A program made the position numbers and the translations under genes. Shown here in pieces: positions 4,277 to 48,857 of a DNA stretch of 64,000 nucleotides (within the stretch, counting starts at the first letter, position 1; every line of letters starts with the position of its first letter). Source of the stretch: Aminobacter sp. AP02. GTDB lineage: Bacteria; Pseudomonadota; Alphaproteobacteria; Rhizobiales; Rhizobiaceae. The notes beneath the pieces are model-generated. The model searched no databases. It was not told the DNA's origin and worked only from the letters and a program-made list of their open reading frames with translations. The stretch is taken from NCBI RefSeq assembly GCF_003148805.1, contig NZ_QGGX01000005.1, positions 1 through 64,000 of the forward strand, given 5' to 3'.

Positions 4277-4975
4277 ATGGCGCAGAAGGTGATCGGCCTG
4301 TTGGGTGGCCTGAGCTGGGAAAGCTCGGCCGAATACTACAGGATCATCAACGAGCTCGTGCGCGAACGTCTCGGCGGTTTGCATTCGGCACGGTGCCTCA
4401 TGTGGTCGTTCGACTTCGCCGAGATCGAGGCGCTGCAAAGCGCCGATCGCTGGCAAGAGGCGACCGTCGAGATGATCGACGCCGCGCGGCGGCTTGAGCG
4501 CGGTGGGGCCGACTTTGCCGTCATCTGCAGCAACACCATGCACCGCATGGCCGATGAGGTGCATGCTGCAATCGACATTCCGTTGCTGCATATCGCCGAC
4601 CCGACCGCCGAGCGGATACGCGAGGCGGGCCTGCGGCGAATCGGGCTGCTCGGCACTGCCTTCACCATGGAACAGGATTTCTACAAGGGCCGGCTGATCG
4701 AGCGTCACGGACTGGAGGTGCTGGTGCCCGAGGCCGAGGACCGGCAGGTGGTGCATCGCATCATCTACGAGGAACTGGTGCAGGGCCGCATCGACGCTTC
4801 GTCGCGCGACGCCTATCGCGAAGTGATCGCGCGGCTGGTCAGGCGCGGAGCGGAGGCGATTATCCTGGGCTGCACCGAGATCATGCTGCTGGTCGGTGCC
4901 GAAGACAGTGCCGTGCCGCTATTCGATACGACCGCCATCCATGCCGAAGCGGCCGTTGCGTTGGCGCTTTCTTGA
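4277..4975 (+). CDS. Aspartate/glutamate racemase family protein
   Basis: A 232-residue cofactor-independent racemase of the aspartate racemase (YgeA-like) group. Two catalytic cysteines are visible: C84 in ICSNTMH and C199 in LGCTEI, the acid/base pair that interconverts L and D amino acids. The glycine-rich IGLLGGLSWESSAEYY start is the family signature. The ribosome-binding site GGAGGAGG stands 7 bases from the ATG. Substrate (aspartate, glutamate or a hydantoin-type analogue) cannot be decided from the sequence. Its stop lies 3 bases from the convergent DUF502 stop. Confidence 0.9.
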   Translation: MAQKVIGLLGGLSWESSAEYYRIINELVRERLGGLHSARCLMWSFDFAEIEALQSADRWQEATVEMIDAARRLERGGADFAVICSNTMHRMADEVHAAIDIPLLHIADPTAERIREAGLRRIGLLGTAFTMEQDFYKGRLIERHGLEVLVPEAEDRQVVHRIIYEELVQGRIDASSRDAYREVIARLVRRGAEAIILGCTEIMLLVGAEDSAVPLFDTTAIHAEAAVALALS

Positions 4976-4978
4976 GCC

Positions 4979-5593
4979 TCACGCCGTGCTTGCGGGCAGT
5001 GTCAGGTCCGCGTGCCGCAGGGCGTCGCCCGAACCGGCGCCGATGCGTTTCACGATCGCCGTTGCCTGAACCATGGTGATATCAAGCGGGCGAACGCGGT
5101 CGGCGGGCAGATACATCACGTTGCCGGACAGCGGCGTCGGCGCCTGCGGCAGGAATACGGTGACCCAGCCTTCGGCGACTTCCTCGACCAGATGGCCCAA
5201 CTGCCAGCCGTCTTCGATGTTGATCAGGGCCGGCTTCAGGCTTCCGGAATTCTCAAGCTGCATCAGCCCTTCGGCCATGGTCCTTATCATCCGGTAAGGG
5301 GGGAGGCCGCCGATCAGGGATTGCTCGACCCACACCGAGAGCCGGGTGCCCGTGGCCGTCCGCGCGATCATGCCCGCGGCGAAGGAAACGACAATCAATG
5401 CCGCTACCGCCACGGTCGTGACGACGCTGAAGCCAGCCACGGCGCCCATCTGGTCGAGCTGCAGGCTATGAGAGAGAGGCGCGACGAACTGATGCGCCAG
5501 TTTCAAGGCGTGGCTCAGAAGGAGCGACAGCAGCACGACGGGCAAAAGGAATATGATGCCGCCGACAACCGTCGTTTTCAGGAAATTCGCCAT
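4979..5593 (-). CDS. DUF502 family inner-membrane protein
   Basis: A 204-residue membrane protein with two hydrophobic segments near the N-terminus (residues 8-30 and 51-76) followed by a soluble domain. GLPPYRMIRTMAEG and VTVFLPQAPTPLSGNVMYLPADRV are conserved DUF502 motifs. Family members are found across bacteria and plants (COV-like), with no defined biochemistry. It lies 41 bases downstream of the ABC-F gene on the same strand and may share its transcript. Confidence 0.85.
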   Translation of the reverse strand: MANFLKTTVVGGIIFLLPVVLLSLLLSHALKLAHQFVAPLSHSLQLDQMGAVAGFSVVTTVAVAALIVVSFAAGMIARTATGTRLSVWVEQSLIGGLPPYRMIRTMAEGLMQLENSGSLKPALINIEDGWQLGHLVEEVAEGWVTVFLPQAPTPLSGNVMYLPADRVRPLDITMVQATAIVKRIGAGSGDALRHADLTLPASTA

Positions 5594-5634
5594 GTACCGT
5601 CTCCGATATCCGATCCCGAAAGGTAGACATGGAT

Positions 5635-7266
5635 TCAGCTGATGGCGAAAGGCTTTTCGCTTTGATACGCCGCAGATGACTGCCGCGGCGACAGTTCAAG
5701 CCTATGGGTAATGCCGATGCCCCTCAGGAACGCTTCGTCGTGGCTGACCACAAGAAGCGCTCCGTCATAGGCGCGCAATCCCGCCTCGACCGTCTCGATG
5801 GAATCGATGTCGAGGTGGTTGGTCGGCTCGTCGAGGATGAGCAGCGGCGGTGGCTTCGTACCGCCCAGAACGCAGGCAAGGCCGGCGCGCAGCAACTGGC
5901 CGCCGCTGAGGCTCGAAACGATCTGCAGGGCGGCATCGGCGCGAAACATGAAGCGCGCAAGGGCCGAGCGGCAGGCATTTTCACCGGCGTCGGGGTTGAT
6001 GCGACGGAAATTGTCGCGGATCGAGGCGGAAGGATCGAGGAGGCTGACCTGCTGGTCGAGCATGGCGAAATCTGCCATGACCCGCACGCTGCCTGACCAT
6101 GGCTGCAATTGTCCCGAGACTAGGGCGAGCAGGGTGGTCTTGCCCGAGCCGTTGGCACCGGTGATGGCGACACGCTCCGGCCCCGTTATGGCGAACGACA
6201 GGTCCTCGATGATCGGCCGGTCTTGGTGATAGCCGGCTTTGGCTTCTTCAATGCGCAATACGAGCTTGCTGGCCGGCAGGCCAGTCGTTGGCAGGACGAC
6301 CGTGAACGGCTCGATGATCTCCAATTGCGCGCGGGCGGCAGCGGCGGCGTCGGCGGCCTGTGCGAGACGGCGTTCAGCCAGGCGTGCGTTGTCGCCAGCA
6401 GTATTTTCGCTGCGGTTCTTCTGTCGGTCGAGCAGGATGCGCGGCGCGTCGCCCTTGGCGCGCTTCTTGTGGCCGGCGCTGTCCTTGCGTGCCTTGCGTT
6501 CGGCAACTTTCTGGCTACTGCGCGCCACGTCCGCGGCGCGGCGCTCGGCTTCGGCCAAGTCCAGTCGGGCTGCTGCGAGCGCCGCCATCTTGCGCTCGTG
6601 GTAGTGGCTCCAGTTGCCGCCATGGCGCGTGGCACCCAGGGCGGTCAGCTCGACGATGGTGTCCATGGTGTCGAGCAGTTCGCGGTCATGGCTGACAACG
6701 ATCGCACCCGCTCGCCAGCTCGCCATAAGCGCCAGGACAGCCGCTTTGCCTTCGCGGTCGAGATTGTTCGTTGGTTCGTCGAGCAAGATGAAATCTGGTT
6801 CACTGAAGATCAGCGCGGCAAGGCCGGCGCGGGTGCACTGGCCGCCTGAAAGCATTGCCAGGGGCGTTTCGGCAGGCATGTCGAGGCCGAGCCGGGCGAG
6901 GGCGGACGCGACGCGTGTCTCCAGAGACCAGTCGGCGTCGGCGAGCTCAGCGACATCCGCCTGGCCAGCTTCGGCGCGGCGCAGCAGCTCAAGGCCTTCG
7001 CTGGCGCCAAACAGGTCGGCAATGGTTTCATTGGCGGCAGGGCGGACCGACTGGCGCAGAAGGCCCAGGCTGCCGCTCACCGATACAGTGCCGGCTTGCG
7101 CCGGCAGACTGCCCGAAATCAGCTTCAGCAGCGTCGACTTGCCAACGCCGTTGCGCCCGACAAGCCCGGTGCGGCCGGTGTCGAAACTGATGTCGAGATC
7201 GGAAAAAAGCGTCCGGCCGTCAGGCGTGGACCAGGTGAGATTGGACAGTGAAACGGAAGCAGGCAT
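5635..7266 (-). CDS. ABC-F family ATPase (Uup/YbiT-like)
   Basis: A 543-residue soluble protein with two ABC ATPase domains and no membrane segment. The first Walker A is GRNGVGKST at residues 37-45 and the second is GANGSGKTT near residue 370. Signatures LSGGQCTRAGL and LSGGQLLRAGL and Walker B motifs LLDEPTNNLD and LILDEPTNHLD are all intact. The linker is charged and Arg/Ala-rich. ABC-F proteins act on the ribosome E-site region; some give antibiotic protection, others act in translation. Start 7266 begins the first domain; the in-frame region upstream has no ribosome-binding site. Confidence 0.92.
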   Translation of the reverse strand: MPASVSLSNLTWSTPDGRTLFSDLDISFDTGRTGLVGRNGVGKSTLLKLISGSLPAQAGTVSVSGSLGLLRQSVRPAANETIADLFGASEGLELLRRAEAGQADVAELADADWSLETRVASALARLGLDMPAETPLAMLSGGQCTRAGLAALIFSEPDFILLDEPTNNLDREGKAAVLALMASWRAGAIVVSHDRELLDTMDTIVELTALGATRHGGNWSHYHERKMAALAAARLDLAEAERRAADVARSSQKVAERKARKDSAGHKKRAKGDAPRILLDRQKNRSENTAGDNARLAERRLAQAADAAAAARAQLEIIEPFTVVLPTTGLPASKLVLRIEEAKAGYHQDRPIIEDLSFAITGPERVAITGANGSGKTTLLALVSGQLQPWSGSVRVMADFAMLDQQVSLLDPSASIRDNFRRINPDAGENACRSALARFMFRADAALQIVSSLSGGQLLRAGLACVLGGTKPPPLLILDEPTNHLDIDSIETVEAGLRAYDGALLVVSHDEAFLRGIGITHRLELSPRQSSAAYQSEKPFAIS

Positions 7267-7421
7267 GAATATCCTCGATGGCAAAACGGCTTGGCGTTGC
7301 TGTCGAGTTGAAATCCATTGCTGCACATATCCTGTCGGAATTGATAACAGGTTTCAAATAAGCTCTATGAGAGCCTTGTTCAAGGCAATTGTTTGCCGTG
7401 ATTTCGAAGTAGGGGGATGGC

Positions 7422-7805
7422 ATGGAAACCAAGCAATATCTCGGCGGTTGCCTGTGCGGCAATATCAGGTTCAGGGCGACGGGCGTGCCGGCCAATCCGC
7501 ACAGCTGCTCATGCAGATTTTGCCAGCGGCATTCCGGAGCACCGACCTTGTGCTGGGTCGAGTTTCCAAGGGACGCCGTCGAATGGGTTGGCGAAGGCGG
7601 AGCGCCAGCGCTCTACCGCTCGTCGGATTATTCGAGCCGCTCGTTTTGCCCGCGCTGCGGCAGCACGCTGGGGGCGATCGACGATGACCCCACCGTCGCC
7701 CTGGTGACCGGCAGTTTCGATGCCGGTGAGGACGCGGAGCTGCGCCCGCTGTCGCATTCATTCGAAGATGGCTGCCCGAACTGGTGGAGGATCGACGTCA
7801 GGTAA
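7422..7805 (+). CDS. GFA-family (glutathione-dependent formaldehyde-activating fold) protein
   Basis: A 127-residue GFA/CENP-V-fold protein. Zinc-binding cysteines are present in the usual pattern: [15 protein letters not shown] and FCPRCGS. Family members may bind glutathione-type adducts, but most have no proven substrate. A purine-rich GTAGGGGGATGGC precedes the ATG at 7422. It is followed at 7964 by a second GFA-type gene, the better-characterised Gfa, so two related folds sit side by side; they differ enough in size and motif spacing not to be a recent duplication. Confidence 0.88.
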
Positions 7806-43744: not shown

Positions 43745-44764
43745 TCAGCGGCAGGCGCGATAGCCGTTCCGGCGCTGCTTGATGTCGAAATGGAAGTGGT
43801 TGCGGTGGTCGTAATTGTAGCCGGGGCCGAGCACAGTATTGAAATAGCTGCAGCCGTCGGCGCGGATGGTGTTGAGGAACCCACGTGTGCGGAAGGCAAA
43901 CAGGCCGGGTTTCTTGACGTCGATGTCGCGGCCGCTGTTGAGCTCGATGCGCATGATGTCAAGCGCGTTGCCCTTGCCGTGTTCCGACAAGGTGCGCGAG
44001 CCGGCGATCTTGCGGCACGAATAGCTCGAACCCTGGTGGATGGTCTTGACGCCGGAGAAGTAGCGCAGGCGCGCTGCTGGAACCAGATCGCGCTTGGTCC
44101 ACGCGGCGAAACTGGCGGCCATCTGGCAGGTGACGGTCGCGGCGGGCTTCATCTGCACCGATCCGATGGCCGAGACCTTGACCGGGTAGTCGATGCCGCA
44201 GGCGGCACCGTCGCGGATTGGCGGCAGGTCGCGGTACTGCACGTCGAGCTTCTTGAGGTCGGCGCGGCAATCGACCTCGTCAGCCGGCATGACGGCGGGC
44301 CTCATTGGTGCTGTCTGCGGCCTCTCGGAGGGATCGTCGAGCTTGGGATAGGCGACCATGTAGGGGTTGGACGGCACCAATGTCTGCAGCCCGCGCGCCG
44401 GAACAAGGGCCGCGGTCTGGACGGGTGGCGGCGCGGCAGCGGTGATCTCGGGCATCGATTGTGCCTGGGCGTCGAGCGTCGGCTCGATGGCCTGGGGTGC
44501 GGTCGCCATCATCGTGGTGTCGGGCAGAGGTGCCGCGGCGATCGGGACGGGTGCGGATTGGGGCGCAACCTCGACGATCGGCAAGGAAGCCGTCTGCGAG
44601 CCGACATCGACCGCGGGCTGGAGCGCGAAGACGTCGCCGGTGGTGCAGGAACTGGCGCCAAGCCCTGCGACCAGCAGCGTCGTGGCAAGCAGCAGCGCGC
44701 GCTGGCGCGAGTTGCGGCGCGGCGATGTGGGGGTTGCGATGGCGGCGCGCGAATCTGCGGCCAT
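43745..44764 (-). CDS. Extensin-like (D-Ala-D-Ala carboxypeptidase fold) protein 1
   Basis: A 339-residue exported protein. An N-terminal basic patch and hydrophobic segment precede GASSC, a possible though weak lipobox around C40, then about 120 Pro/Ala/Thr-rich residues, then the extensin-like C-terminal domain (about residues 165-339): CRADLKKLDVQY, TLSEHGKGNALDIMRIEL and DHRNHFHFDIKQRRNGYRAC. The HxxGxAxD and H-x-H groups look like the zinc ligands of the peptidase M15-type fold, which suggests an envelope peptidase. A second family member lies next to it at 44860. Confidence 0.85.
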   Translation of the reverse strand: MAADSRAAIATPTSPRRNSRQRALLLATTLLVAGLGASSCTTGDVFALQPAVDVGSQTASLPIVEVAPQSAPVPIAAAPLPDTTMMATAPQAIEPTLDAQAQSMPEITAAAPPPVQTAALVPARGLQTLVPSNPYMVAYPKLDDPSERPQTAPMRPAVMPADEVDCRADLKKLDVQYRDLPPIRDGAACGIDYPVKVSAIGSVQMKPAATVTCQMAASFAAWTKRDLVPAARLRYFSGVKTIHQGSSYSCRKIAGSRTLSEHGKGNALDIMRIELNSGRDIDVKKPGLFAFRTRGFLNTIRADGCSYFNTVLGPGYNYDHRNHFHFDIKQRRNGYRACR

Positions 44765-44859: not shown

Positions 44860-45714
44860 CTACTGGCAAAACGTTCCGCCGTTGCGCCGGGGGGCGAGGT
44901 CCAGATGGAAATGCAGCGCATGGTCGGCGTCGCTGCCGGGGCCGAGCACCGTCTTGAACGGTCCGCAGGCGGCCTTGCGGATCGAAGAAAGGAATTTTTC
45001 GTTCTTTTCGGGCGGCGCCGGCTCGACGTCGATGGTTGTGCCCTTGGCTAGCGTAAAGCGGGCAATGTCGAGCGCATTGCCGAACGCGTGTTCGGACAGT
45101 TTCCTGGTCCCGTTGCGCGGTCGGCAGACATAGGCCGAGGCCTGACTTATGGCCGCCAGATCCTCATCGAACATGGCTTTTGCGGTCGATGAGATGACGT
45201 CGGCCGCGAAACGCGCCGAGGCTTCGGCGGCGGCGCAGTTGATGACCGCATCCGGCTCTATGTCGATCGACCGGGTCAGCCGCTTGAGCTTGAGCGGAAA
45301 GGGCAGGGCGCAGCCTTCGGCATCGCGCTGGGGCGCGACTTCCTCGAATTCGGCGCCAAGCACCTTGAGGCGCGCGCGGCAGGCAGATTCCTCGGCTGGC
45401 ATCGACGCCGGTCGCGGAACATTCGAACGTGGGTCGGGCAGCATCCTTGGTGCAGGAGGACCGATAAATCCCTTGTCCGATGGCGTGGTCGAAGACTTTG
45501 GCAAATCGGGACGCGCCTGCGGAACGGGGATCGAGGCCTGCCTTTGTGTCGGTTTGGCAGCAGGCAACGGCACACCAGGGGCCGGCGCGAATTGCGGAAC
45601 TGGCACCCGGTCGGGCAGTTCGATCGTTTTTGGGCGAGCGTCGGCAAATTGCGGCAAGCTTGCCAGTGCCAGGATCAAAAGCAGCGATGGGCGGTGAAGT
45701 CTGCGGAAATGCAT
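44860..45714 (-). CDS. Extensin-like (D-Ala-D-Ala carboxypeptidase fold) protein 2
   Basis: A 284-residue exported protein and paralogue of the one at 43745. It has a signal peptide ending ADA, a Pro-rich linker with PVPQ/PxPAAK repeats, and the same domain: CRARLKVLGAEFEEV, KLSEHAFGNALDIARF, and DADHALHFHLDLAPRRNG with the C-terminal Cys. Zinc ligands are conserved. The two genes face the same direction with a 95-base gap and share overall layout but little linker sequence, so they are an old tandem duplication. Probable peptidoglycan or surface-polymer processing. Confidence 0.85.
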   Translation of the reverse strand: MHFRRLHRPSLLLILALASLPQFADARPKTIELPDRVPVPQFAPAPGVPLPAAKPTQRQASIPVPQARPDLPKSSTTPSDKGFIGPPAPRMLPDPRSNVPRPASMPAEESACRARLKVLGAEFEEVAPQRDAEGCALPFPLKLKRLTRSIDIEPDAVINCAAAEASARFAADVISSTAKAMFDEDLAAISQASAYVCRPRNGTRKLSEHAFGNALDIARFTLAKGTTIDVEPAPPEKNEKFLSSIRKAACGPFKTVLGPGSDADHALHFHLDLAPRRNGGTFCQ

Positions 45715-46747: not shown

Positions 46748-46812
46748 CGGACGAAATGCCGCCGCCGATGCGTTGATCTCGCCGGAGGGGACGCAATGGT
46801 GGAGGTTAAACC
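46748..46812 (+). promoter_or_regulatory. Duplicated leader of the first tetracysteine repeat-protein gene
   Basis: This 65-base leader closely matches the one before the next paralogue (47462-47524): both contain GGACGAAATGCCGCCGCC, a TGCGTTGA block, GAGGGGACGCA, and a G-rich ribosome-binding site (GGAGGTT) just before the ATG. Here the potential hairpin is TGCGT with ACGCA. The match extends upstream of the coding region, so the duplication unit includes the regulatory part. Confidence 0.6.
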
Positions 46813-47382
46813 ATGCAAACCCTCAAACTCCTGGCAAGCGTGCTCGTTTCATTGCCGTTGTTCGCGGCTCCCGTGCTTTCGTCCGGCGGCGGAGGTGGTG
46901 GCGGTGGCGGCGGTATGTCCAGCGGTGGGGGCGGTGGCAGCAGCAGCGCCCAGGTCAAATGCCGTACCGGTCTGATCTACAACATGAGAAGCAAAAAATG
47001 CGAACATCCCAGAGCGGGCATGATCGACGACGAAAGCCTGTTCCTGGCTGGCCGCTCGCTTGCCATGGACGGCAAATATGACGATGCGATCAAGGTTTTG
47101 ACGCTCGCCGCCGACAAGACCGATGCGCGCATCCTCAACTATCTCGGTTATTCGCACCGCAAGGCCGGGAGAACGCTGGTCGGTCTGGGCTACTACAATG
47201 AAGCGATCCTCAACGACCCCAACTACATGCCTGTCCGGGAATATCTCGGCGAAGCGCATCTGACTTTCGGCGATATAGCGGGTGCTCGGGCGCAACTCAC
47301 CGAGATCGCCAATCGCTGCGGCACGACTTGCCGCGAATATGGGCTGCTGTCGGAGCAGATCCACGCTTACGTCAGGAGTTAG
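46813..47382 (+). CDS. Secreted tetracysteine repeat protein, tandem paralogue 1
   Basis: A 189-residue exported protein. A signal peptide ends near PVLS; then a poly-Gly linker (GGGGGGGGG) with Ser; then C-RTGLIYNMRSKK-C; then a TPR-like helical core (LAMDGKYDDAIKVLTLAADK, ILNYLGYSHRKAGRTL, EAILNDPNYMPVREYLG) and a final CGTTCREYGLLSEQIHAY. Four cysteines are conserved with its two downstream neighbours. Periplasmic TPR proteins often bind protein partners. The function of this family is not known to me. Confidence 0.8.
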   Translation: MQTLKLLASVLVSLPLFAAPVLSSGGGGGGGGGGMSSGGGGGSSSAQVKCRTGLIYNMRSKKCEHPRAGMIDDESLFLAGRSLAMDGKYDDAIKVLTLAADKTDARILNYLGYSHRKAGRTLVGLGYYNEAILNDPNYMPVREYLGEAHLTFGDIAGARAQLTEIANRCGTTCREYGLLSEQIHAYVRS

Positions 47383-47461
47383 GAAACCTGTCCAGGCGCG
47401 CCCGCGGCTCTTCGCTCTCAAATTCGAAAACTACGGGCGTTTGGCGTTTCCAGTGCTCAGG

Positions 47462-47524
47462 CCGGACGAAATGCCGCCGCCAGTGCGTTGACTTCGCGAG
47501 GGGACGCACTGGCGGAGGTTGACC
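47462..47524 (+). promoter_or_regulatory. Leader hairpin of the second tetracysteine repeat-protein gene
   Basis: CCAGTGCGT (47480-47488) pairs perfectly with ACGCACTGG (47504-47512) over a 15-base loop and ends one base before the GCGGAGGTTGACC ribosome-binding site and the ATG at 47525. Sequence similar to the leader of the first paralogue (46748-46812) surrounds it. A hairpin touching the ribosome site could affect translation or mRNA stability. Confidence 0.55.
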
Positions 47525-48106
47525 ATGCAAGTCCGATTTCTGAAGCTCCTGGCAAGCGCACTCGTGTCCCTGCCGTTGTTCGCAATTCCTGTCCTTTCGG
47601 CTGACGGTGGTGGTGGTGGTGGCGGTGGCGGAGGCGGAGGTGGAGGCGGAGGCGGAGGTGACAATGGCAGCAGTCAGGTCAAATGCCGCACGGGGCTCGT
47701 CTACAACGCAAGAACCAAAAAGTGCGAGCGGCCAAAGGCCGGCATGATCGACGACGACAGCCTTTATCTGGCAGGTCGTGCGCTCGCCATGGACGGCAAG
47801 TATGACGACGCAATCAAGGTTTTGGCGCTAGCAGCCGACAAGACCGATGCACGCATTCTTAACTATCTCGGTTATTCGCATCGCAAGGCAGGCAGGATTG
47901 TCGTCGGCCTCGGCTATTACCAGGAGGCGATCCTCAACGATCCCGACTACATGCCTGTACGCGAGTACATGGGCGAGGCTCATCTCTCGCTTGGCGATGT
48001 CGCCGGCGCGCGGCTGCAGCTGACCGAGATCGCCAATCGCTGCGGCACGACTTGCCGCGAATACGGCCTGCTGTCGGAGCAGATCCACAGCTACGTCAGG
48101 AGCTAG
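47525..48106 (+). CDS. Secreted tetracysteine repeat protein, tandem paralogue 2
   Basis: A 193-residue exported protein, the closest relative of paralogue 1. The poly-Gly linker is longer (an uninterrupted run of about 18 Gly, encoded by GGN triplets), the first cysteine pair is C-RTGLVYNARTKK-C, and the core GKYDDAIKVLALAADKTDAR and C-terminal CGTTCREYGLLSEQIHSYVRS are nearly identical to its neighbour. The start at 47525 follows GGCGGAGGTTGACC. The difference in Gly run length between paralogues points to slippage in the GGN tract. Confidence 0.82.
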   Translation: MQVRFLKLLASALVSLPLFAIPVLSADGGGGGGGGGGGGGGGGGGDNGSSQVKCRTGLVYNARTKKCERPKAGMIDDDSLYLAGRALAMDGKYDDAIKVLALAADKTDARILNYLGYSHRKAGRIVVGLGYYQEAILNDPDYMPVREYMGEAHLSLGDVAGARLQLTEIANRCGTTCREYGLLSEQIHSYVRS

Positions 48107-48244
48107 GCTCCCGACCCTGATACTGGTGGCTTTTCGCCGCCCAAGCGAAAAGCCACTGATGTTCATCGTCTTGCGGCGCTCAGGCCGGATGAAACGTCGG
48201 CCGAAATGCGTTAGCTTACGTATGGGCAATCTCAGGAGGTGGCA

Positions 48245-48772
48245 ATGCAGTCCCGATATCTGATGCTTGTGGCAGGCGCCGTCGTGGCCTTGCCGTTGTT
48301 TGCGGCTCCGGCGCTTGCGGCCGACAGTGGCGGCTCGACCCCGCCGACCTGCAAGGCAGGCATGGTCTACAACAAGAAGACGCAGAAATGCGAACCTGCC
48401 AAAGCAGGCATGATCGATGACGACAGCATCTATGAAACCGGGCGCGCGCTGGCCATGAACGGCAAGTATGACGAGGCGATCAAGGTGCTGACCCTTGCCG
48501 CCGACAAGACCGACCCGCGCATCCTGAACTATCTCGGCTACTCGCACCGCAAGGCAGGCCGCGTGCTGGTCGGTCTCGGCTATTACCAGGAAGCGCTGCG
48601 CAACAATCCCGATTACGCGCTGGTGCGTGAATATATGGGCGAGGCCCATCTGATGCTCGGCGACGTTGCCGCCGCGCGCGTGCAGCTGTCGGAAATCGAA
48701 AAGCGCTGTGGCAAGGGCTGCCGAGAATACGGGATGCTGGAAGAAAACATCGAGGCGTATCTGAGAGGTTAG
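48245..48772 (+). CDS. Secreted tetracysteine repeat protein, tandem paralogue 3
   Basis: A 175-residue exported protein and the most diverged of the three. It has a signal peptide ending ALAA, almost no Gly linker (DSGGSTPP), the first pair C-KAGMVYNKKTQK-C, the same TPR-like core (NGKYDEAIKVLTLAADKTDPR) and a final CGKGCREYGMLEENIEAYL. The start at 48245 follows CAGGAGGTGGCA. The shared leader motif (CAGGCCGGATGAAA) is degenerate. It is likely the oldest copy, or the one under different selection, with the poly-Gly run gained or lost in the others. Confidence 0.82.
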   Translation: MQSRYLMLVAGAVVALPLFAAPALAADSGGSTPPTCKAGMVYNKKTQKCEPAKAGMIDDDSIYETGRALAMNGKYDEAIKVLTLAADKTDPRILNYLGYSHRKAGRVLVGLGYYQEALRNNPDYALVREYMGEAHLMLGDVAAARVQLSEIEKRCGKGCREYGMLEENIEAYLRG

Positions 48773-48778
48773 TAAGCA

Positions 48779-48857
48779 GGGCAGTAGGGCAGTAGGGCAG
48801 TAAAACAAGCTTTCCTTGTACCTCTCCTGCCCTACTGCCTTATTCCCTTACTGCCCT
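48779..48857. repeat. GGGCAGTA tandem repeat with inverted partner, possible terminator
   Basis: Three consecutive GGGCAGTA units occupy 48779-48802. Downstream, CTGCCCTACTGCC (48827-48839) is the reverse complement of 13 bases of that array, and a further TTACTGCCC follows at 48849-48856. The whole lies between the convergent third paralogue (stop 48772) and the PQQ-type dehydrogenase (stop 48860). It could form alternative long hairpins on either strand and probably acts as a bidirectional terminator. Confidence 0.6.

Follow-up and report, generated by a model that had tools for sequence, protein, structure and literature searches.

Three tandem TPR genes and their promoters

We analyzed a stretch of 64,000 nucleotides from Aminobacter sp. 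AP02 (contig NZ_QGGX01000005.1, positions 1 to 64,000; hereafter the window) that carries three consecutive genes, copies A, B and C, for small tetratricopeptide repeat (TPR) proteins with signal peptide-like leaders. Each gene is preceded by a promoter-like element of the extracytoplasmic function (ECF) sigma factor type, and this element tracks one ECF sigma factor across related genomes, suggesting that the three proteins are probably an output of an envelope-stress pathway. A first-pass annotation had proposed three tandem genes for secreted four-cysteine paralogues at this locus, and that proposal was borne out: all three copies are intact and lie on the plus strand. The features are as follows.

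46749..46774, plus strand: copy A, ECF-type promoter element GGACGAAA-N13-GCGTT (regex scan and own-genome pattern searches)
46813..47382, plus strand: copy A, putative secreted TPR protein of 189 aa with a long interrupted Gly tail (translation, Pfam, tree)
46884..46914, plus strand: GGN array of copy A, encoding the Gly tail (Tandem Repeats Finder)
47464..47489, plus strand: copy B, ECF-type promoter element GGACGAAA-N13-GCGTT (same scan and searches)
47525..48106, plus strand: copy B, putative secreted TPR protein of 193 aa with 18 consecutive Gly (translation, Pfam, tree)
47605..47658, plus strand: GGN array of copy B, encoding the Gly tail (Tandem Repeats Finder, outer limits of overlapping rows)
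48187..48212, plus strand: copy C, ECF-type promoter element GGATGAAA-N13-GCGTT (same scan and searches)
48245..48772, plus strand: copy C, putative secreted TPR protein of 175 aa with a short tail like most single-copy relatives (translation, AlphaFold, Pfam, tails, tree)
48350..48391, plus strand: copy C, hairpin with the Cx12C pair (C36-C49), modelled as two beta strands (alignment, AlphaFold, sub-cut-off CBM_14 match)
48419..48766, plus strand: copy C, residues 59-174, comprising the three TPRs, the capping helix at the C-terminus and the CxxxC pair at C155 and C159 (AlphaFold, alignment)

Position 46748, at which the annotated stretch begins, is one base ahead of the -35-like element of copy A. 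In each protein the leader is followed by a Gly-containing stretch, a C-x12-C pair and about 115 helical residues; both cysteine pairs described earlier, the C-x12-C close to the N-terminus and the C-x3-C close to the C-terminus, are present in all three copies. The first cysteine lies beyond the tail, at C50 in copy A, C54 in copy B and C36 in copy C. The leaders had also been called duplicated, which holds for A and B, whose leaders and 5' regions are near-duplicates, but less so for C, which is more diverged. Over 140 codons of the core, identity is 86% for A/B, 74% for B/C and 68% for A/C. The corresponding ratios of nonsynonymous to synonymous substitution (dN/dS, NG86) of 0.08, 0.12 and 0.20, which are rough since dS is about 1 or more, point to purifying selection on the three copies; none looks like decay.

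The exact pattern GGAYGAAA-N13-GCGTT occurs in the 5.6 Mb genome solely ahead of copies A, B and C, and its one-mismatch sites (14, against 18 for the reversed pattern) are at background. Searching with GGAHKAAA-N13-GCGTT yielded five sites (one for the reversed control), the three copies and two more; one of the latter is at the start of another open reading frame and the other is 140 bases ahead of an ECF sigma gene at G000:C3:225185-225700, hereafter the C3 sigma. NCBIfam gave general sigma matches only. Directly 3' of the C3 sigma gene is that of an anti-sigma of 264 residues with one membrane-like segment. Of 40 aligned copies of the TPR gene, 36 have upstream a -35 of the GGA/GAA type and, at an almost constant distance, a CGTT -10; a stricter pattern was found upstream of 32 (reverse strand 0, shuffles 0.1). 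As for the -35, most sigma promoters and some TPR rows (e.g. L025-L028) have GGAATA, and others have GGATGA, GGACGA or GGAAGA.

Co-occurrence of the promoter with ECF sigma factors

Orthologues of the C3 sigma, taken at 57% identity or more and E <= 8e-60 (the next best match was at 1.5e-40), were present in 34 of 199 genomes of the family. We compared genomes having a strong TPR match with available upstream sequence, excluding TPR matches with E above about 5e-59; the TPR matches of G098, G117 and G146 fell outside the comparison, as did G121, which has a contig-edge fragment only. The strict promoter was found in 20 of 30 genomes with the sigma compared to 1 of 22 without it (p 4e-6), with a spacer limit one base wider than in the 40-copy count and with G105, whose match is at a contig edge, counted as a miss. 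The single sigma-less genome with the strict motif was G102, with a site at -139 and another over the start. A relaxed motif, GGA[ACT][GT]-N16-18-CGTT, which was chosen post hoc after inspecting the strict-motif misses, was present in 28 of 29 genomes with the sigma and 1 of 22 without (Fisher 4e-12; 51 genomes, G105 excluded), and in 33 of 34 copies (shuffle mean 0.2). Here the exception was G166, whose assembly is 85% complete and whose congener G071 does carry the sigma. Sigma and promoter go together in the congeners G163 and G066, being both present or both absent. The motif also stands ahead of the sigma gene itself in all 30 orthologues (reverse strand 0-1, shuffles about 1), and a direct check found the anti-sigma gene directly 3' of the sigma gene in 30/30.

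We further analyzed 79 loci of the TPR gene at the level of the order, which were chosen from match lists and are not a random sample (80 regions less L127, a 100-base filler). In 22 of the 79, an ECF sigma gene lay no more than 2 kb from the TPR gene, and the sigma model had no match farther away in the regions analyzed, whose mean length is 13.6 kb; this model derives from the sigma cluster beside the first 39 loci and may miss other sigma types. The 22 linked loci carry seven family labels, and the sigma gene is downstream on the same strand in some and divergent in others. In the Rhizobiaceae-type loci the TPR gene adjoins a sigma gene between a metallophosphatase gene and leuA, a place that we take to be possibly that of RpoE3. 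A site of the pattern GAAT[AT]-N14-17-CGT, chosen after viewing the linked loci, precedes 12 of the 22 TPR gene copies with a linked sigma and 5 of the 58 unlinked ones; on the reverse strand the counts are 0 and 4, respectively. With a regex for GGA-N-CGTT, sites turned up in 2 of the 39 order-level loci analyzed first, where start codons are uncertain. In the sigma tree, the TPR-adjacent sigmas fall into three groups, and the sigma of L178 joins the C3-type sigmas (96% SH-aLRT, long branch). At L178 (G288) this relative of the C3 sigma is divergent beside a remote member of the TPR family, a second link of that sigma group.

Several observations weigh against placing the TPR genes under the C3-type sigma. 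The relaxed motif and the GAATA pattern were both picked after part of the counted sequences had been viewed. Genomes with and without the sigma are phylogenetically clustered, leaving four independent pairs on well-supported branches; with the relaxed motif three of these favour the association, none opposes it and one shows no difference (median p 0.25), and with the strict motif about two are in favour, none against and two without difference. G068 has both the sigma and the TPR gene while the promoter is absent, and G073, G106 and G168 have a sigma orthologue without a TPR match at 1e-10, which suggests that the sigma has other targets there. In the order, 57 of the 79 loci are without such a sigma nearby, and the sigma tree flags long branches, L174 and L178 among them.

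Fold, tails and spread of the family

The core had been described as about 100 residues of TPR-like helices. It is indeed helical, albeit about 115 residues long (59-174 of copy C) and a true TPR domain. Copy C scored over the Pfam gathering cut-offs with PF13432 (44.8 bits, cut-off 32.7), PF13431 (41.3, cut-off 24.4) and PF07719 (41.1, cut-off 27), and copies A and B were likewise over the cut-off for TPR_2 and TPR_17. An AlphaFold model of copy C, built on 40 aligned relatives, has a mean predicted local distance difference test score of 85.3, with block means >90 from residue 61. It shows seven helices over 59-174, stacked as two-helix repeats, and two strands (40-43 and 48-51) located between and after the cysteines of the first pair; the predicted fold is a Cx12C beta-hairpin followed by three TPRs and a capping helix. 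Foldseek returned 53 PDB matches with E <= 0.001; judging by their titles, most of the 50 listed ones are TPR proteins, either designed or natural. None of the listed NCBIfam models reached its cut-off for copy C; MamA, LcrH/SycD and PilW were rejected at 20.7 of 200, 20.2 of 104.8 and 12.7 of 154 bits. The core matches a well-known superfamily, albeit one without a single established role, and the match does not decide on the first-pass reading. The first-pass annotation knew of no described function, and searches of the open-access literature likewise gave no description of the family or of its sigma-factor link.

Conservation was assessed over 101 rows, 40 from the main alignment and 61 of 80 order-level copies (E < 1e-38). 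The N-terminal cysteine pair is present in all 101. At the C-terminal pair both cysteines are present in 68 rows, one in 1 and neither in 32, an all-or-none pattern that is expected from a disulfide, though the rows are related, and that fits putative disulfide bonding. With the TPR register placed by eye, conservation is higher at the groove positions (2, 5, 9, 12 and 13) than at the remaining non-consensus positions (3.07 vs 2.43 bits, one-sided p 0.009); R102 is present in 101/101 rows, K103 in 93 and N95 in 87. The higher conservation of the groove fits one conserved partner.

The Gly stretches differ in length, as had been noted: copy A has 10+5 Gly with an MSS break, copy B 18 uninterrupted and copy C two. 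They had been regarded as hinges, which was not upheld. Because the stretch directly follows the leader and sits ahead of the hairpin, it is an N-terminal tail and not a hinge between folded parts, and once the leader is cleaved, as we infer, it would form the free flexible N-terminus of the mature protein. Without a membrane anchor, a longer tail would give no obvious reach of the kind suggested for these proteins. Slippage, also proposed, may occur in A and B, whose GGN arrays are imperfect with units of 3 to 12 bases, but lengths are stable within each paralogue class, and slippage within the arrays does not scramble the classes. Counted from residue 26 in the 40-copy alignment, the tails of eight C-type copies have 9-14 residues with 0-4 Gly and those of nine A/B-type copies 22-30 residues with 14-20 Gly; the split into short C-type and long A/B-type tails holds in eight loci. 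A second short/long pair occurs in G178 (M. albiziae, L015), with 10 vs 47 residues and 25 Gly in the long copy, and another in G096, with 9 vs 43 residues and 28 Gly in the long copy, where the short copy has a shorter leader so that its four Gly precede residue 26.

In the core tree, the 19 Aminobacter-group rows form a single clade (100/98), which places the duplication behind the L015 pair apart from the Aminobacter one; the L015 long copy is on a long branch and G096 is outside this tree. Within the group, ten A/B copies form their own clade (100/99), in which copy A pairs with the upstream gene of G009 (100/99) next to copy B (96/93). Eight C copies group together (92/85, not a starred branch), and the C copy of L007 is outside. 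On the best explanation, which we hold to be probable as a whole, the three genes belong as tandem paralogues to an old family of putatively exported TPR proteins from the Hyphomicrobiales, and tail length diverged between paralogues after duplication.

Ten genomes of the genus Aminobacter were examined and all have the gene, nine with two matches and the source genome with three. The idea of an expanding family is favoured by the three copies here; on the other side, the upstream copy of one relative, G002, is broken (G002:C1 near 2210684, L294), with a stop in the leader and with leader and core in different frames. One of the nine relatives thus has a disabled copy, while the C copy of G002 is open, and the lesion does not decide on the first-pass reading either. 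The family profile matches 103/199 sampled genomes of the family and 64/199 of the order (E <= 1e-10). In the class, 56 of 240 genomes match at 1e-15, the source genome included; four further genomes reach E < 1e-40 over nearly the full length, and the other 51 match only from model position 51 on, that is, the TPR part without the hairpin. The family appears to be a little-noticed one of soil and plant-associated bacteria. A distant TPR relative without the hairpin but with the CxxxC end is encoded elsewhere in the source genome (L154, G000:C1:4000-19000, at 7205-7678), by eye directly 3' of genes for an ABC transporter ATPase and a substrate-binding protein.

Most related loci share a neighbourhood of two extensin-like genes, DUF3775, DMT_6 (DUF486), the TPR gene or genes, a GSDH sugar dehydrogenase gene, greA and a glycosyltransferase gene, the last two named by eye. 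The extensin-like genes of the window, whose place is conserved in many related loci, are the following.

43745-44764 and 44860-45711, minus strand: two adjacent genes with an Extensin-like C-terminal domain

Directly past the stop codon of copy C, at 48778-48802, are three copies of the 8-base repeat AGGGCAGT. A reverse-complement stretch was seen by eye about 35 bases beyond; the arrangement could represent a terminator or some small repeat element.

A putative envelope-stress output and its alternatives

We consider it probable that the three proteins are periplasmic TPR adaptors that act as an output of an ECF envelope-stress pathway. From the promoter and its co-occurrence with the C3 sigma, which the sequences support, we infer the following course of events. 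An envelope signal would free the C3-type sigma from its membrane anti-sigma, and the freed sigma would transcribe the three TPR genes along with the sigma operon. The TPR proteins would pass through Sec to the periplasm, where their cysteines may oxidise and the conserved TPR groove may bind a periplasmic partner. The proteins would be the output of the pathway, as an adaptor or holdase-like factor, and not an obligatory part of its switch, because the TPR gene persists where a C3-type sigma is absent (22 of the 51 genomes); this retention, along with the three sigma groups that adjoin the gene elsewhere, suggests an output with rewired control.

The linkage of the TPR gene to ECF sigma genes in several families and the promoter type common to TPR genes and sigma could also point to an RseB-like regulator, which would bind the periplasmic part of the anti-sigma and tune sigma release under feedback. 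Genes co-transcribed with ECF sigmas often regulate them, as an excerpt of PMC3511301 argues for the unrelated SMc01418. We regard this role as unlikely, given the 22 genomes with the TPR gene but without a C3 sigma orthologue (one of them the 85% complete G166) and the three clades of sigmas that adjoin the gene; the source genome, with its three copies unlinked to the sigma, suits an output better. Membership in the ordinary EcfG general stress regulon is improbable. EcfG promoters are similar in their spacing and in the CGTT of the -10, but GGAAC-N16-18-CGTT was found upstream of the TPR gene in 0/51 genomes and upstream of the sigma in 0/30, and EcfG (ECF15) was rejected on the former count. 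Moreover, the promoter tracks a sigma whose anti-sigma has a membrane-like segment, whereas the NepR type is soluble. It is slightly less probable still that the three genes are driven by another ECF sigma of the genome, at C1:281.7 kb beside a subtilase gene, which has the best score among own-genome sigmas with the model of TPR-adjacent sigmas and has GGAATAA-N14-CCGTT sites at its locus. All four exact genome sites of that motif fall in its own region, on which ground it was rejected as the driver; its spacing and the base ahead of CGTT differ from the TPR promoters, while the C3 sigma promoter matches them in both. This second ECF sigma/anti-sigma pair (L153, G000:C1:276000-289000, at 4899-7784) has a divergent subtilase-type protease next to it, with an Asp-rich N-terminus followed by a Gly run.

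Two further readings concern the protein itself. A role in secretion or secretin assembly like that of TadD, Y4yS or pilotins, without a particular tie to stress, is about as improbable as the EcfG regulon. Small exported TPR proteins do serve in this way in rhizobia (Y4yS, per an excerpt of PMC4311626), and the 51 further class genomes matching only the TPR part of the family model would be compatible with it. However, the leaders of A, B and C end without a lipobox cysteine, the invariant Cx12C hairpin goes unmentioned for Y4yS in that excerpt, and the named conserved neighbours include no secretin gene, although no search was aimed at secretins. Least probable of all is a cell-wall or polysaccharide binder in which the hairpin would be half of a chitin-binding peritrophin-A domain with the TPRs as scaffold. 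CBM_14 matched over the hairpin in all three copies (E 0.003 to 0.2), with 12.2 bits for A, 15.5 for B and 18.1 for C, all under the cut-off of 22.1, and was rejected; the hairpin has two cysteines, while CBM_14/peritrophin-A is a six-cysteine domain. In addition, the sequence between the hairpin cysteines is wholly different in some relatives (e.g. L160, L166).

Returning to the periplasmic output, its assignment moves a large, putatively exported family from "TPR protein" to the probable output of a specific sigma/anti-sigma locus. The TPR genes could serve as ready-made reporters for the C3-type sigma, and the sigma in turn points to conditions under which to seek the TPR protein and its partner. 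The repeated split into short and long Gly tails is also a simple pattern for studying low-complexity N-terminal tails in the periplasm. More tentatively, this unnamed family of periplasmic TPR adaptors might be a recurrent output of alphaproteobacterial ECF envelope-stress sigmas, with at least three sigma clades in control by adjacency or in trans, and with duplicates repeatedly splitting into short-tail and long poly-Gly-tail forms that work as a pair; we hold this broader proposal with considerably less confidence.

Compared to known systems, the proteins resemble the TPR superfamily (TPR_2, TPR_16, TPR_17) in their three TPRs and capping helix, with designed and natural TPRs as the best PDB matches, and differ by the invariant Cx12C hairpin in front, the CxxxC at the end and the Gly tail. 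RseB is not a TPR protein. It is similar in being a periplasmic protein tied to an ECF sigma and a membrane anti-sigma (sigma-E system, excerpt of PMC8103513), but the TPR gene is often unlinked to a sigma and is kept in genomes without the C3-type sigma. The Y4yS/TadD pilotin-like proteins are likewise small exported TPR proteins of rhizobia, with a lipobox LGCC and a secretin partner according to PMC4311626; the lipobox is absent in A, B and C. A close regulatory parallel may be the ECF26 sigmas of Sinorhizobium meliloti (RpoE1, RpoE3, RpoE4 and RpoE6), which PMC6180224 describes as having small, mostly autoregulated regulons with -35 GGAATA-type promoters and an anti-sigma that has a periplasmic part and a single membrane segment. 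Of these sigmas, RpoE1 and RpoE4 respond to sulfite-generating compounds (excerpts of PMC3511301 and PMC6180224), a signal that we do not carry over to the C3 sigma. The exported protein of the rpoE1 operon, SMc01418, is a 'lipoprotein 15' protein in the excerpt of PMC3511301 and was rejected as a member of the TPR family, in which respect the two systems differ. The putatively autoregulated sigma and the anti-sigma with one membrane-like segment are features that the present system appears to share with the ECF26 regulons. Compared to an ECF26-type promoter with -35 GGAATA and -10 GT, its -35 varies, being GGAATA in some relatives and GGAYGAAA at copies A, B and C.

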